Of a stretch of DNA of 64,000 bases, positions 25,479 to 29,419 are shown in pieces. The notes below the pieces were generated by a model. It ran no database searches, was not told the DNA's origin, and saw nothing but the letters and a program-made list of their open reading frames with translations. Position 1 is the stretch's first letter, and every line of letters starts with the position of its first letter. The stretch is from the NCBI RefSeq assembly GCF_040546595.1, contig NZ_JBEPOB010000001.1, positions 2,419,001 to 2,483,000 of the forward strand. The letters run 5' to 3'. This stretch comes from Bosea sp. OAE506 (lineage in GTDB: Bacteria; Pseudomonadota; Alphaproteobacteria; Rhizobiales; Beijerinckiaceae). A program made the translations under genes and the position numbers.

Positions 25479-27101
25479 CTAGCTCCGCAGGCCCGGCGCT
25501 TCCTGGCCGGTGCGGGCGACGTATTCGGTGTAGCCGCCGCCATAGGCATGGACGCCGTCGGGCGTCAGTTCCAGCGTGCGGTTGGAGAGCGCGGCGAGGA
25601 AATGCCGGTCGTGGCTGACGAACAGCATCGTGCCCTCGTACTGCGCCAGCGCATTGATCAGCATTTCCTTGGTGGCGATGTCCAGATGGTTGGTGGGCTC
25701 GTCGAGGACGAGGAAATTCGGCGGGTCGTAGAGCATCAGCGCCATGACGAGGCGGGCCTTCTCGCCGCCGGAGAGCACGCGGCAACGCTTTTCGACATCG
25801 TCGCCCGAGAAGCCGAAGCAGCCGGCGAGCGCGCGCAGCGAACCCTGGCCGGCCTGGGGGAAGCGGTCCTCCAGCGACTGGAAGATGGTGCGGTCGCCGT
25901 CCAGCACCTCCATGGCGTGCTGGGCGAAATAGCCGAGCTTGATCGAGCCGCCGAGCGCGACGCTGCCGGAATCGGGCTCGGTCGAGCCGGTGACCAGCTT
26001 CAGCAACGTCGACTTGCCGGCGCCGTTGACCCCCATCACGCACCAGCGCTCCCTGCGGCGGATCTGGAAGTCGAGCGCCTCGTAGATGGTGCGGCTGCCA
26101 TAGCGCTTGTCGACGCCCTTGAGCGTGACGACGTCCTCGCCCGAGCGCGGGGCGGGCGGGAAATCGAAGGAGACGGTCTGGCGGCGCTTGGGCGGCTCGA
26201 CCTTCTCGATCTTATCGAGCTTCTTGACGCGGCTCTGGACCTGGGCGGCGTGGGAGGCGCGCGCCTTGAAGCGCTCGATGAAGGCGACCTCCTTGGCGAG
26301 CATGGCCTGCTGACGCTCGAACTGGGCCTGCTGCTGCTTCTCGGCGAGCGCGCGCTGCTGCTGGTAGAATTCGTAATCGCCGGAATAGGACGTCAGCGCG
26401 CCGGCATCGATCTCGACGATCTTGCCGACGATGCGGTTCATGAACTCGCGGTCGTGCGAGGTCATCAGCAGCGCGCCCTCATAGCCCTTGAGGAAGGATT
26501 CCAGCCAGATCAGGCTCTCGAGGTCGAGATGGTTGGAGGGCTCGTCGAGCAGCATCGCGTCGGGGCGCATCAAGAGGATGCGGGCGAGCGCGACGCGCAT
26601 CTTCCAGCCGCCCGAGAGCGCGCCGACATCGCCCTCCATCATCTCCTGGCTGAAGCCGAGGCCGTCGAGAACCTCGCGGGCGCGGCCGTCGAGCGCATAG
26701 CCGTCGAGCTCCTCGAAACGGCCCTGCACCTCGCCATAGCGGGCGATGATCTCGTCCATCTCGTCGGCACGGTCGGGGTCGCCCATCGCCGTCTCGAGCT
26801 CGCGCAGCTCCGCCGCCACGGCGCTGACGGGTCCGGCGCCCTCCATCACGGCGGCGACCGCGCTCATGCCCTGCATCTCGCCGACATCCTGGCTGAAATA
26901 GCCGATGGTGATGCCGCGATCGACCTGGACCATGCCCTCGTCGGGCTGCTCCTGGCCGGTGATCATCCGGAACAGGGTGGTCTTGCCGGCGCCGTTGGGG
27001 CCGACGAGGCCGACCTTCTCGCCCTTCAAGAGCGAGGCGGAGGCCTCGATGAAGACGATCTGCTGGCCGTTCTGCTTACCGATGTTTTCGAGACGGATCA
27101 T
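25479..27101 (-). CDS. ABC-F family ATPase (ribosome-associated type)
   Basis: A 540-residue soluble protein with two ABC domains and no membrane segment. Walker A motifs are GPNGAGKTTL (about 34-43) and GVNGAGKSTL; signatures are LSGGWKMRVALAR and LSGGEKARLVMAL; Walker B motifs are LLDEPSNHLDL and VLDEPTNHLDI. The interdomain linker (YQQQRALAEKQQQAQFERQQ) is the P-site tRNA-interaction motif of ABC-F proteins. YbiT/Uup-type is most likely. Its start overlaps the stop of the prephenate dehydrogenase gene by 4 bp (ATGA), so translation is coupled. Confidence 0.93.
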   Translation of the reverse strand: MIRLENIGKQNGQQIVFIEASASLLKGEKVGLVGPNGAGKTTLFRMITGQEQPDEGMVQVDRGITIGYFSQDVGEMQGMSAVAAVMEGAGPVSAVAAELRELETAMGDPDRADEMDEIIARYGEVQGRFEELDGYALDGRAREVLDGLGFSQEMMEGDVGALSGGWKMRVALARILLMRPDAMLLDEPSNHLDLESLIWLESFLKGYEGALLMTSHDREFMNRIVGKIVEIDAGALTSYSGDYEFYQQQRALAEKQQQAQFERQQAMLAKEVAFIERFKARASHAAQVQSRVKKLDKIEKVEPPKRRQTVSFDFPPAPRSGEDVVTLKGVDKRYGSRTIYEALDFQIRRRERWCVMGVNGAGKSTLLKLVTGSTEPDSGSVALGGSIKLGYFAQHAMEVLDGDRTIFQSLEDRFPQAGQGSLRALAGCFGFSGDDVEKRCRVLSGGEKARLVMALMLYDPPNFLVLDEPTNHLDIATKEMLINALAQYEGTMLFVSHDRHFLAALSNRTLELTPDGVHAYGGGYTEYVARTGQEAPGLRS

Positions 27102-27967
27102 GTTTTCGCGTGACGCTCAGGGATGATATTGCGCTGCAATAGGGCAGGACGGCCCGGTGCGGAAGAGCCGGGTTCCGGTTCCTCGCTGCAGGCGAGGGCC
27201 GGCGCGGGGTGATCGTGTCGCTCCAGCGCGTGGGTCAGTGCCTGCGCATGGGCGAAAAATCGCTCCCGCACGGCGCGCGCATGCGGATTGGCCCGCTCGA
27301 TCGCCAGGAAGACGCCGGGCGTGTCGTGGCGCACCATCTCGGTCGCCTGCATCAGCAGTTCGAAGCTGCGGGTGGTCATCCGGCGCGGCACGGGCTCCAT
27401 ACGGACGAGGATCTTGGCGACGAGATGGGTCAGGCCCTGGACCAGCGCCATGTCGCGGTCATGTGCGTCCGGCGTGGTCAGGATCACGTCGAGGGCAAAG
27501 ATCCGGCGCAGGAAGGCGGCGATGCGCCCGGTGCTGCGGCCGCGGATCGGGCAGAGCGCGATCTTCAAACCGGCCAGCCCGTCGCGCGCGCTCTGCGGGC
27601 CGAAGAGCGGATGCGTGCCGATGATCTCGACATGCTCCGGCAGTCCCTCCAGCAGCAGGCGGGCGGGCTCGATCTTCACCGAGCCGACATCGAGCACGAT
27701 GGTGCCGGCGCGCAGATGCGGGCGCAGGCTCGCGATCGCCTGCGCCATCGCGTCGACCGGGACGGCGAGCACGACGATGTCGCAGGCCGCCACGGCCGCG
27801 ACGTCGCCCGGCACGAGCCCCTTGCCCGCCGGGTCGGGCTGCGGCGGCCGTGAGGGATCGCAGACGACGAGGCGAAGATGCGGCTGGAGATGGCGCGCCA
27901 TCAGCTGCCCGAAGGCGCCGAAGCCGAGCAGGCCGAGAGAGGAGAAGGATTTGCGCTGGCGTGGCAT
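27098..27967 (-). CDS. Prephenate/arogenate dehydrogenase family protein
   Basis: NAD(P)-dependent oxidoreductase of tyrosine synthesis. The N-terminal Rossmann domain has LGLLGFGAFGQLMARHL and VVLAVPVDAM; the substrate region has IGTHPLFGPQSARDGLAG with the conserved His. The helical C-terminal domain follows (MALVQGLTHLVAKILVRMEP; FELLMQATEMV). The 289 aa include a C-terminal tail rich in Pro/Glu/His. No chorismate mutase or ACT domain is fused. Upstream lies a possible tyrosine leader peptide with alternative hairpins, which would suit control by tyrosine supply. Confidence 0.88.
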   Translation of the reverse strand: MPRQRKSFSSLGLLGFGAFGQLMARHLQPHLRLVVCDPSRPPQPDPAGKGLVPGDVAAVAACDIVVLAVPVDAMAQAIASLRPHLRAGTIVLDVGSVKIEPARLLLEGLPEHVEIIGTHPLFGPQSARDGLAGLKIALCPIRGRSTGRIAAFLRRIFALDVILTTPDAHDRDMALVQGLTHLVAKILVRMEPVPRRMTTRSFELLMQATEMVRHDTPGVFLAIERANPHARAVRERFFAHAQALTHALERHDHPAPALACSEEPEPGSSAPGRPALLQRNIIPERHAKT

Positions 27968-28014
27968 CGTTGGGTTCCCTGGAGGGGGGCCGCGATGCCG
28001 GGTGACTGCCTGAG

Positions 28015-28039
28015 TTCAACCGCCAGCGCGGCGGTTGAA
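28015..28039 (-). promoter_or_regulatory. Leader hairpin before prephenate dehydrogenase (attenuator 3:4-like)
   Basis: TTCAACCGCC (minus strand 28039-28030) and GGCGGTTGAA (28024-28015) form a perfect 10-bp stem with a 5-nt loop, 47 nt before the dehydrogenase ATG. The CCGCC in its 5' arm is also complementary to GGCGG immediately after the leader-peptide stop, giving a mutually exclusive pairing. No U-tract follows, so classical intrinsic termination is uncertain. Confidence 0.45.
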
Positions 28040-28059
28040 GCATAAGAATGCGACCCGCC

Positions 28060-28110
28060 TTATGAGGACGGGGCGTAATAGGTCCGGGCGAGGCAGGTCG
28101 CTGGGGTCAT
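28060..28110 (-). CDS. Putative 16-residue tyrosine leader peptide
   Basis: The frame reads MTPATCLARTYYAPSS and stops at TAA. Tandem Tyr codons (TAT TAC) are at positions 11-12, and the gene downstream makes tyrosine. The codons are followed directly by GCCCCG, which can pair with GGCGGG after the stop; that segment can instead pair with the 5' arm of the 28015-28039 hairpin. This is the 1:2 / 2:3 / 3:4 arrangement of a ribosome-stalling attenuator. A consensus -35 upstream would place transcription start at the A of its ATG, like the leaderless trpL of Sinorhizobium. Too short for homology support. Confidence 0.4.
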   Translation of the reverse strand: MTPATCLARTYYAPSS

Positions 28111-28116
28111 GAGCCG

Positions 28117-28145
28117 CTTCAAGCGCAGGCTGTCGGGGCTGTCAA
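28117..28145 (-). promoter_or_regulatory. Promoter for the leader peptide/prephenate dehydrogenase unit
   Basis: Minus strand: perfect -35 TTGACA (28145-28140), 17-bp spacer, and -10-like TTGAAG (28122-28117), followed by six bases and then the ATG at 28110. The -10 matches only 3 of 6 positions of the sigma-70 consensus, common in alphaproteobacteria. It overlaps the distal arm of the carA hairpin. Confidence 0.45.
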
Positions 28146-28175
28146 CCCGGACGCGGCGGAGTGCCGGTCCGGGTT
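28144..28175 (-). terminator. Hairpin after carA
   Basis: AACCCGGAC (28144-28152) and GTCCGGGTT (28167-28175) form a perfect 9-bp stem with a 14-nt loop, 36 bp past the carA stop. There is no strong T-run. It probably ends or protects the carA transcript and separates it from the prephenate dehydrogenase unit. Confidence 0.5.
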
Positions 28176-28210
28176 GATGGCGCAGGTTCAGGAGAGCAAC
28201 GACGGCCGTC

Positions 28211-29419
28211 TCAGGCCGCCGTCTTCGCCTTCTCGGCGTCCATCATCTCGACGAAGCGCTTGAACAGGTAGTGGCTGTCCTGCGGGCCGGGCGAGGCTTC
28301 CGGGTGGTGCTGGACGCTGAAGGCCGGACGGTCGGTGAGGGCAAAGCCGCTGTTGGAGCCGTCGAAGAGCGAGACATGGGTCTCGACTGCGTGCGCGGGC
28401 AGCGAGGCGGGATCGACCGCGAAGCCGTGGTTCATCGAGACGATCTCGACCTTGCCGGTCGTCTTGTCCTGCACCGGGTGGTTGGCGCCGTGATGGCCTT
28501 GCTTCATCTTCATCGTCTGGCCGCCGACGGCGAGCGCCAGCATCTGGTGGCCGAGGCAGATGCCGAAGGTCGGGACCTTCTTCTCCAGCAGTTCCCTGAT
28601 GACGGGGACGGCGTATTCGCCCGTCGCGGCCGGGTCGCCCGGGCCGTTGGAGAGGAAGATGCCGTCCGGCTGCAGCGCCAGGATCTCCTCCGCCGAGGCG
28701 GTCGAAGGCACGACGGTCACGTCGCAGCCGGCCTTGGAGAGCAGTCGCAGGATGTTGCGCTTCACGCCGTAATCGATCGCGACGACCTTGTGGGCGGCGC
28801 CGTCGCGCTTGCCGTAGCCGGCCGGCCACTGCCAGGGTGTTTCGTCCCATTCGTAGCGCTGGGCCGAGGTGACCATCGGCACGAGGTCGAGGCCGGCCAT
28901 ATCCGGCAGTTCGGCTGCCAGTTTCTGCAGGCGCGGAATGTCGAAGACGCCGTCGGGCGAGTGGGCCAGGATCGCGTTCGGCATGCCGTTGTCGCGGATC
29001 AGGGCGGTCAGCGCGCGGGTGTCGACGCCGCAGATGCCGACGATGTTGCGCGCCTTGAGCCAGGCGTCGAAATGGCGGCTGGCGCGCCAGTTCGAGGGCT
29101 CGGTGATGGTGGCGTGGAGCACGACGCCGCGCACGCCGGAGGCGGCAGCGGCGTTGACGGTCTCGGTGTCGTCGTCGTTGACGCCGACATTGCCGATATG
29201 GGGGAAAGTGAAGGTGACGATCTGGCCGGCATAGGACGGGTCGGTCAGGATCTCCTGATAGCCCGTCATCGCCGTGTTGAAGCAGACCTCGCCGGGCGCC
29301 TCGCCGGTGGCGCCGAGGCCGAAGCCCTCCAGCATCGTGCCGTCGGCGAGGACCAGCAAGGCGGTCGCGCGCGGTTCGCTCCAGCCGCCCGTGGCGGGGT
29401 TTCCTTCGTGTGCGGTCAT
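28211..29419 (-). CDS. carA: Carbamoyl-phosphate synthase small subunit
   Basis: Glutaminase subunit that hydrolyses glutamine and passes ammonia to CarB. The N-terminal CPSase domain has VCFNTAMTGYQEILTDPSYAGQ and TFTFPHIGNVGVNDDD. The C-terminal class I glutamine amidotransferase domain has nucleophile Cys in TFGICLGHQMLA and the His/Glu pair in HHPEASPGP. ATG 29419 gives 402 aa, the usual length. It is divergent from the yqeY-dnaG-rpoD group, an order conserved in Rhizobiales. Confidence 0.97.
   Translation of the reverse strand: MTAHEGNPATGGWSEPRATALLVLADGTMLEGFGLGATGEAPGEVCFNTAMTGYQEILTDPSYAGQIVTFTFPHIGNVGVNDDDTETVNAAAASGVRGVVLHATITEPSNWRASRHFDAWLKARNIVGICGVDTRALTALIRDNGMPNAILAHSPDGVFDIPRLQKLAAELPDMAGLDLVPMVTSAQRYEWDETPWQWPAGYGKRDGAAHKVVAIDYGVKRNILRLLSKAGCDVTVVPSTASAEEILALQPDGIFLSNGPGDPAATGEYAVPVIRELLEKKVPTFGICLGHQMLALAVGGQTMKMKQGHHGANHPVQDKTTGKVEIVSMNHGFAVDPASLPAHAVETHVSLFDGSNSGFALTDRPAFSVQHHPEASPGPQDSHYLFKRFVEMMDAEKAKTAA

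Follow-up and report, generated by a model that had tools for sequence, protein, structure and literature searches.

The window analysed here, a stretch of 64,000 nucleotides within a 5.0-Mb single-contig genome of the genus Bosea, contains a short gap between carA and a gene for a TyrA-family dehydrogenase. The earlier note had placed a Tyr-Tyr leader frame before a tyrosine-biosynthesis gene here, and all of the features that it claimed for a tyrosine leader element are found in the sequence, on the minus strand. The frame is MTPATCLARTYYAPSS, at 28110-28060, and the gene downstream is the TyrA-family gene. The features of the locus are as follows, in the order in which they would be transcribed:

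29455-28211, minus strand: carA, the upstream neighbour
27968-28210, minus strand: gap of 243 bases from carA to the TyrA-family gene, which holds the promoter, leader and hairpins
28140..28145, minus strand: -35 box, TTGACA
28117..28122, minus strand: -10 box, TTGAAG, after a 17-nt spacer, with the leader ATG six bases on
28060..28110, minus strand: leader ORF MTPATCLARTYYAPSS* (ATG at 28110, stop ending at 28060), with translation predicted from the RNA 5' end
28075..28080, minus strand: tandem Tyr codons TAT TAC, the first of them six codons before the stop
28065..28071, minus strand: segment 1 (CCGTCCT), which pairs with segment 2
28054..28060, minus strand: segment 2 (AGGCGGG), partner of segment 1 or segment 3
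28030..28039, minus strand: segment 3 (TTCAACCGCC), partner of segment 2 or segment 4
28015..28024, minus strand: segment 4 (GGCGGTTGAA), which forms the 3:4 hairpin or, with its loop, is the partner of segment 5
27993..28001, minus strand: segment 5 (CCGGCATCG), with GGCATCG directed to the gene start and CCGGC to GCTGG
27963..27980, minus strand: segment 6, a Shine-Dalgarno-like AGGGA and the gene start CGATGCC
27098-27967, minus strand: TyrA-family dehydrogenase gene, with PDH_N and PDH_C above the Pfam cut-offs
27101-25479, minus strand: ABC-F ATPase gene, the 3' neighbour of the TyrA-family gene

The segments can pair in alternative ways. Segment 1 can pair with segment 2 (28071-28065 with 28060-28055) to give six base pairs with one bulge, and GGCGG of segment 2 (28059-28055) can instead pair with CCGCC of segment 3 (28034-28030). 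Segments 3 and 4, TTCAACCGCC and GGCGGTTGAA, form a perfect 10-bp hairpin with the loop GCGCT. Both the two alternatives for segment 2 and this hairpin had been pointed out before and can be read directly in the sequence. Further downstream, CCGGC of segment 5 can pair with GCTGG, which is made up of the 3:4 loop and segment 4, and GGCATCG of segment 5 pairs with CGATGCC at the start of the TyrA-family gene. The 4:5 pairing is weak in the window, where it is interrupted and has a 5-bp core (GCUGG/CCGGC), and it is weaker still in the Bosea loci with CCGAC. The CGATGCC/GGCATCG helix has GC to AU exchanges at one pair. A search of Rfam over 27000-29000 of the window, with E values up to 5, gave three weak matches, none of them above the gathering score and none over the element on its strand, and the Rfam covariance models, which include the T-box and the trp and phe leaders, gave no matches on 12 other loci.

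Two other structures were seen in the gap. Many Bosea loci have a further small frame (ATG TTC AAC ... TGA, MFNRRAGG*) that spans the 3:4 hairpin (28015-28043, minus strand); it was dropped as a candidate given that an extra base breaks the copy in the window. The inverted repeat AACCCGGAC...GTCCGGGTT, at 28144-28176, lies between carA and the leader promoter, and its 3' arm on the minus strand reaches into TTGACA. The repeat has no U-tract, and the two closest relatives, L004 and L005, share it with a different loop. A sub-threshold Rfam match to P4 falls at the same repeat, but on the opposite strand.

The TyrA-family gene is a second TyrA homologue; a scripted search upstream of the other PDH_N gene (G000:C1:4899835) found no short Tyr-containing ORF. 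The best NCBIfam matches of the TyrA-family protein are prephenate dehydrogenase models, with scores below their cut-offs, and its nearest solved structures in the PDB are soybean prephenate dehydrogenase 1 and variants of it. Its residue D215 aligns with soybean position 222 and is Asp in all 12 proteins of alignment A2. Given that an acidic residue at position 222 of plant TyrA proteins goes with arogenate over prephenate, as described in PMC5681985, the alignment suggests that the enzyme is an arogenate rather than a prephenate dehydrogenase and that its annotated name may err in the substrate.

Promoter and leader frame

The arrangement TTGACA-N17-TTGAAG-N6-ATG agrees with the earlier claim of a TTGACA box at a suitable distance from the leader. 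The -10 box is weak, as the earlier note conceded: a pattern scan of 27900-28300 found no consensus sigma-70 promoter, and across 30 Bosea loci the box is TTTAAG in 16 and the TTGAAG of the window in three. In all but three of the 101 leaders (98), TTGA[CT] begins 34-39 nt 5' of the start codon, the commonest distance being 35 nt (53 leaders). This fixed spacing supports the proposal that transcription starts at the ATG, with a leaderless or nearly leaderless 5' end, and the leader RNA would be expected to begin at the ATG or only a few bases away. The leader is probably translated in leaderless fashion, with no Shine-Dalgarno sequence of its own, because the spacing leaves no room for one if transcription starts at the usual distance. 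Within Bosea, the upstream neighbour differs, being carA in some genomes and other sequence elsewhere, and conservation begins at TTGACA, which argues that the leader has its own promoter.

The geometry of the leader was compared by a scripted scan of 114 loci, which yielded 101 leaders, 73 of them with a distinct core sequence; the 101 are not independent, since some family genomes duplicate named genomes. The scripted scoring left out L097 and missed L165, whose single-Tyr leader was seen separately. Despite the divergence in sequence, the frame, start codon, stop codon and position of Tyr are retained in all 101 leaders. The first Tyr codon lies six codons before the stop in every one of them (73/73 of the distinct sequences), where four to eight codons were allowed. 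The Tyr codons are TATTAC in 77 leaders, TATTAT in six and TACTAC in five, with a single Tyr in 13. Because the second codon may be either TAT or TAC, tyrosine itself is what is kept. The stop is TAG in 65 leaders and TAA in 36, the length is 15-17 residues in 96, and the N-terminal half of the peptide varies freely across loci.

Conservation in Bosea and spread beyond it

A protein search of 61 Bosea genomes found a strong TyrA orthologue in 48. The upstream regions of the best 30 of these 48 were read, and a tandem-Tyr leader is present in all 30, ending in ..YYAPSS*, ..YYTPSS* or ..YYALFS*. The earlier note had proposed a check upstream of orthologues for tandem Tyr codons and alternative pairings, and had named relatives lacking the codons or the frame as evidence against the element. 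Both the codons and the pairings are kept in the 30 Bosea loci and in many other alphaproteobacterial genera, and each of the 30 has both the Tyr codons and the frame. An RNA model, R1, was built from the 30 Bosea loci and run on 299 relatives; 53 of 67 Bosea genomes contain one match each. Of the 61 Bosea genomes that were under both the protein and the R1 search, 48 have the element as well as the gene, and the other 13 have neither.

The leader is also found outside the genus. A scan of 248 genomes of the family gave an orthologue with an E value of up to 1e-25 in 47 genomes, 34 of them outside Bosea. These 34 loci comprise 19 with tandem-Tyr leaders, four with single-Tyr leaders and 11 with none. 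The 11 leader-free loci are all from genus g33 (L082-L085, L087, L088, L090, L091, L094-L096), and because all 11 g33 orthologues that were fetched have no leader, the TyrA-family gene can exist without one. Named genomes were scanned as well, and out of at least 571 relatives the best 80 loci were taken. In 69 of these best 80, a TTGAC box is followed by a tandem-Tyr leader; in 10 the leader has a single Tyr, and one locus, from Caulobacter sp. S45, has no leader. The genera with tandem-Tyr leaders among the best 80 include Chelatococcus, Pseudochelatococcus, Methylobacterium, Thalassospira, Hyphomicrobium and Mesorhizobium, as well as Ochrobactrum-type Brucella, Roseomonas, Roseococcus and Jhaorihella. 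Leader sequences differ outside Bosea while the frame, the Tyr codons and the alternative pairings persist. A chance origin of the leader was rejected: an ORF ending in YY-x(2-5)-stop with a correctly spaced TTGAC, within about 300 nt upstream, was found for 69 of the best 80 named orthologues as compared to 0 of 1722 control windows of equal length, taken from both strands of the same loci.

Single-Tyr leaders, such as SYRAPLP, SYPAPHP and SYSTPLP, are mostly of Methylobacterium type and have an otherwise unchanged geometry; they are found at L152, L153, L159, L161, L165, L171, L184, L185 and other loci. Eight of the 10 single-Tyr loci among the best 80 named loci are titled Methylobacterium, Methylorubrum or Beijerinckiaceae, and the other two are Acetobacteraceae. 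These leaders are possibly a series in decay or retuning.

At the level of the class, a thin sample of 385 genomes gave an orthologue with an E value of up to 1e-35 in 13, with a tandem-Tyr leader in five (G000, G074, G683, G440 and G746) and no such leader in eight. In three of these eight (L197, L198 and L200), the gene lies directly 3' of an aminotransferase-like frame, as judged by eye. The leader-free loci of the class sample, including those with the gene behind an aminotransferase-like frame, indicate that the leader is tied to the stand-alone TyrA-family gene and is not universal. The RNA model R2 gave 10 matches on the same 385 genomes, four of which (G000, G074, G683 and G746) precede an orthologue; the other six, at 24-29 bits, are in genomes with no strong orthologue. 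Two of the six, L189 and L190, were taken as chance matches, given that the ORFs there are unrelated genes. The orthologue at L097 (G074) aligns only from about residue 44-50, as if there were an insertion after the gene start.

Pairing of the segments and its putative output

Covariation was scored in A3, an alignment of 29 divergent sequences from which L101 was left out. Helices 1:2 and 3:4 together have 89.7% standard pairs and 13 two-sided changes, compared to a shuffle mean of 3.4, and none of 500 shuffles had as many. Their covariation score of 0.148 was likewise reached in none of 500 shuffles, and helix 1:2 has two-sided changes at four of its seven pairs. The number of further pair types for the two helices was not above that of the shuffles (297/500). 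Some slid versions of the structure also show two-sided changes, at up to seven pairs, but none scores above 0.101. By columns, helix 2:3 has no two-sided change, partly through its shifting register.

The segments were also compared by a swap test, in which duplex energies were calculated for segments of the same locus and for segments of other loci. From the 101 leaders, 97 were kept after L075, L081, L099 and L102 were left out (no start codon found), and L098, L100, L104 and L164 were also left out to give 93, from which 30 representatives with less than 80% identity were taken. A segment pairs better with the partner of its own locus for 2:3 (p 0.0002), 4:5 (p 0.0026) and 5:6 (p <0.0002), in a set of 11 tests with uncorrected values. 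The result for 3:4 (p <0.0002) is circular, given that 3:4 was chosen by pairing, and that for 1:2 is not significant (p 0.09). Segments that are not neighbours are unmatched, with values of 0.50 for 4:6, 0.975 for 1:5, 0.93 for 2:5, 0.20 for 1:4 and 0.48 for 2:4. A complementarity between 3b and 5 (GCUGCG:CGCAGC) was set aside as weaker (swap p 0.035).

The pairing segments differ by lineage, for example CCGCUGGC with GCCAGCGG in Roseococcus (L157) and CCGCCAG with CUGGCGG in Roseomonas (L150). The helix that hides the ribosome-binding site is GGCATCG/CGATGCC in the window and in Bosea, GACCTC/GAGGTC in Chelatococcus and CCTCT/AGAGG in Brucella loci of the Ochrobactrum type. When segment 5 and the site are folded alone, the site is more paired than with a dinucleotide-shuffled segment 5 in 24 of 30 loci (p 5e-5), and the folding energy is below that of the shuffled version in 27 of 30 (p 2.6e-7). 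At the level of sequence comparison, mutually exclusive pairings 1:2, 2:3 and 3:4 are present, of which 1:2 and 3:4 covary and 2:3 is matched by energy within lineages. The same comparison supports the leader, the position of its codons, the promoter spacing and the lineage-matched 4:5 and 5:6.

The element is very probably a tyrosine leader-peptide attenuator of some kind. For its action, we infer a ribosome stall, an order of folding and a direction of response. Transcription would start at the leader ATG or a few bases from it. When charged tRNA-Tyr is ample, the ribosome would reach the stop codon and cover segment 2, such that 3:4 forms and segment 5 is left for the Shine-Dalgarno sequence and AUG of the gene. 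With 5:6 formed, the TyrA-family enzyme would be made poorly. When charged tRNA-Tyr is scarce, the ribosome would stall at the two adjacent Tyr codons, covering segment 1, and 2:3 would form ahead of the transcription of segment 4. Segment 4, thus freed, would capture segment 5 before segment 6 is made, and with 4:5 formed the ribosome-binding site would stay open.

The earlier reading as a tyrosine attenuator is supported, with an amendment to its output, which it had as transcription read-through past 3:4. A U-tract after 3:4 is lacking from the window and from nearly all of the Bosea loci read, and 4:5 and 5:6 extend as far as the ribosome-binding site, such that translational control is the likelier output. 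That the element is a ribosome-sensing tyrosine attenuator that acts mainly on translation of the downstream TyrA-family gene is a probable reading, and it is reasonably likely that translation is the main output in Bosea. In the best reading, translation is the chief output, and a minority of lineages would have a terminator-like one.

Equilibrium folding was rejected as proof of the switch and counts against the mechanism, as does the short 4:5 pairing in Bosea: no switch was seen when the ribosome footprint was masked, and forcing 2:3 was only a half success. With the mask, the mean unpaired probability of the site is 0.353 for the stalled ribosome and 0.367 for the ribosome at the stop; accessibility of the site is higher for the stalled ribosome in only nine of 30 loci, a small difference opposite to prediction (p 0.03). 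With 2:3 forced, 4:5 forms in the nascent RNA in 30 of 30 loci (11.2 versus 0.1 expected pairs), and at full length 5:6 mostly regains the site, with equal accessibility (0.35 versus 0.36). Because 5:6 mostly wins at full-length equilibrium, the switch needs kinetic trapping in the order of transcription. Folding trapped in this order is a general assumption for attenuators.

The 1-2-3-4 architecture is that of trp-type attenuators, and the element might be a classical transcription attenuator, in which 3:4 terminates at ample tyrosine, as a weak intrinsic or Rho-assisted terminator, and 5:6 is secondary. T-rich tails after 3:4 are in keeping with this: three loci of genus g32 (L101, L103 and L105) have the tail GTTTTCATTT, with a GC-rich 3:4 stem and then TTCATTT, two Thalassospira loci have TTTTTT (L177) and TTTT (L154), and Bosea sp. 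Root381 (L113) has TTTT. Such tails are possibly a conversion of the hairpin to an intrinsic terminator in a few lineages. However, the tail in the window is CTCAGGCAGT, which has no U-tract, and a pattern scan of 27900-28300 found no terminator-like site with a U-run, as the earlier note itself allowed. A four-T run follows 3:4 in one of 30 Bosea loci, and only 11 of 97 loci have five or more T among the next 10 nt, the three g32 loci and the Thalassospira locus with TTTTTT among them. Transcription attenuation also leaves the lineage-matched 4:5 and 5:6 unexplained, and we regard it as an unlikely account of the element.

A mainly trans-acting role of the leader RNA or peptide, like that of rnTrpL and peTrpL of Sinorhizobium, with the hairpins marking a small RNA, is much less probable. 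The layout of a leaderless small mRNA is shared with S. meliloti trpL as described in PMC10117765, and the leader is of nearly constant length, 15-17 residues in almost all loci. However, the element stays with one gene, in one copy per genome where it is found, it pairs with the ribosome-binding site of that gene, and the peptide varies freely over its N-terminal half. The Tyr codons could also be incidental, in a protein- or ligand-binding element that happens to encode YY. Although some stretches, such as CAACCGC, are nearly invariant across genera, the frame, start, stop and Tyr position are kept in every leader, with exchange of TAT and TAC, and no Rfam family match was found for the element in the window or for the 12 other loci; this explanation is the least credible of all. 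An attenuator that responds to tyrosine and acts mainly on translation is the preferred reading.

Relation to known attenuators and significance

Leader-peptide attenuators are textbook examples of regulation for Trp, His, Phe, Leu, Ile/Val and Thr, and the known controls for tyrosine are TyrR and T-boxes. Proteobacterial attenuators were reportedly surveyed by Vitreschak and colleagues in 2004. No Tyr-specific attenuator was found in Rfam or in the literature searched, which covers few subscription journals.

The S. meliloti trpL leader, the source of rnTrpL, is similar in layout in its description in PMC10117765: it is an alphaproteobacterial leader ORF of ~15 codons at the RNA 5' end, with cognate codons near the leader end, alternative hairpins and a biosynthetic gene downstream. 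It differs in that it has Trp codons before trpE and that its attenuator releases an sRNA, whereas the Bosea element has Tyr codons, a TyrA-family gene, no U-tract in the window and a chain of pairings to the ribosome-binding site. AroR of Corynebacterium glutamicum (Phe-Tyr-Phe), as reviewed in PMC11802643, also has a Tyr codon in a leader before an aromatic gene, aroF, and is the nearest case found for tyrosine; it is from another phylum, precedes another gene and is described there as responding to Phe and unaffected by tyrosine availability. The uORFC-8-2 before cysS in Rhodobacterales is an alphaproteobacterial uORF with two tandem cognate codons and an attenuator-like structure, but its codons are for Cys (positions 14-15) and it is presented in PMC8632094 as transcriptional. 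In the LEU element of Actinobacteria, as in Bosea, a leader with cognate codons is joined to a pairing that reaches the Shine-Dalgarno box of the gene, with no terminator. As PMC1262725 describes it, the Leu codons themselves pair with that box in a pseudoknot, and its authors doubt that translation of the leader matters. Fig. 6b of PMC6429828 gives two candidate uORFs that contain F and Y and precede shikimate (aromatic amino acid) genes; compared through text that names neither gene nor organism, they may be a partial prior notice of the element.

The element may belong to an alphaproteobacterial family of Tyr-specific attenuators. In such a family, a ribosome stall at two Tyr codons would be relayed via the alternative helices 1:2, 2:3, 3:4, 4:5 and 5:6 until the ribosome-binding site of a plant-like TyrA gene opens, and some lineages would have converted the element to a transcription terminator, such that one sensor has two outputs; on this wider proposal we are evenly balanced. 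A Tyr attenuator across several alphaproteobacterial orders would, if true, fill a gap for tyrosine. The leaders are a natural series, in which Tyr is tandem or single and a T-rich tail is present or absent, and this series could serve to test how attenuators shift from translational to transcriptional control or back. The element could also find use as a ready sensor of tyrosine starvation for non-pathogenic hosts such as Methylobacterium.
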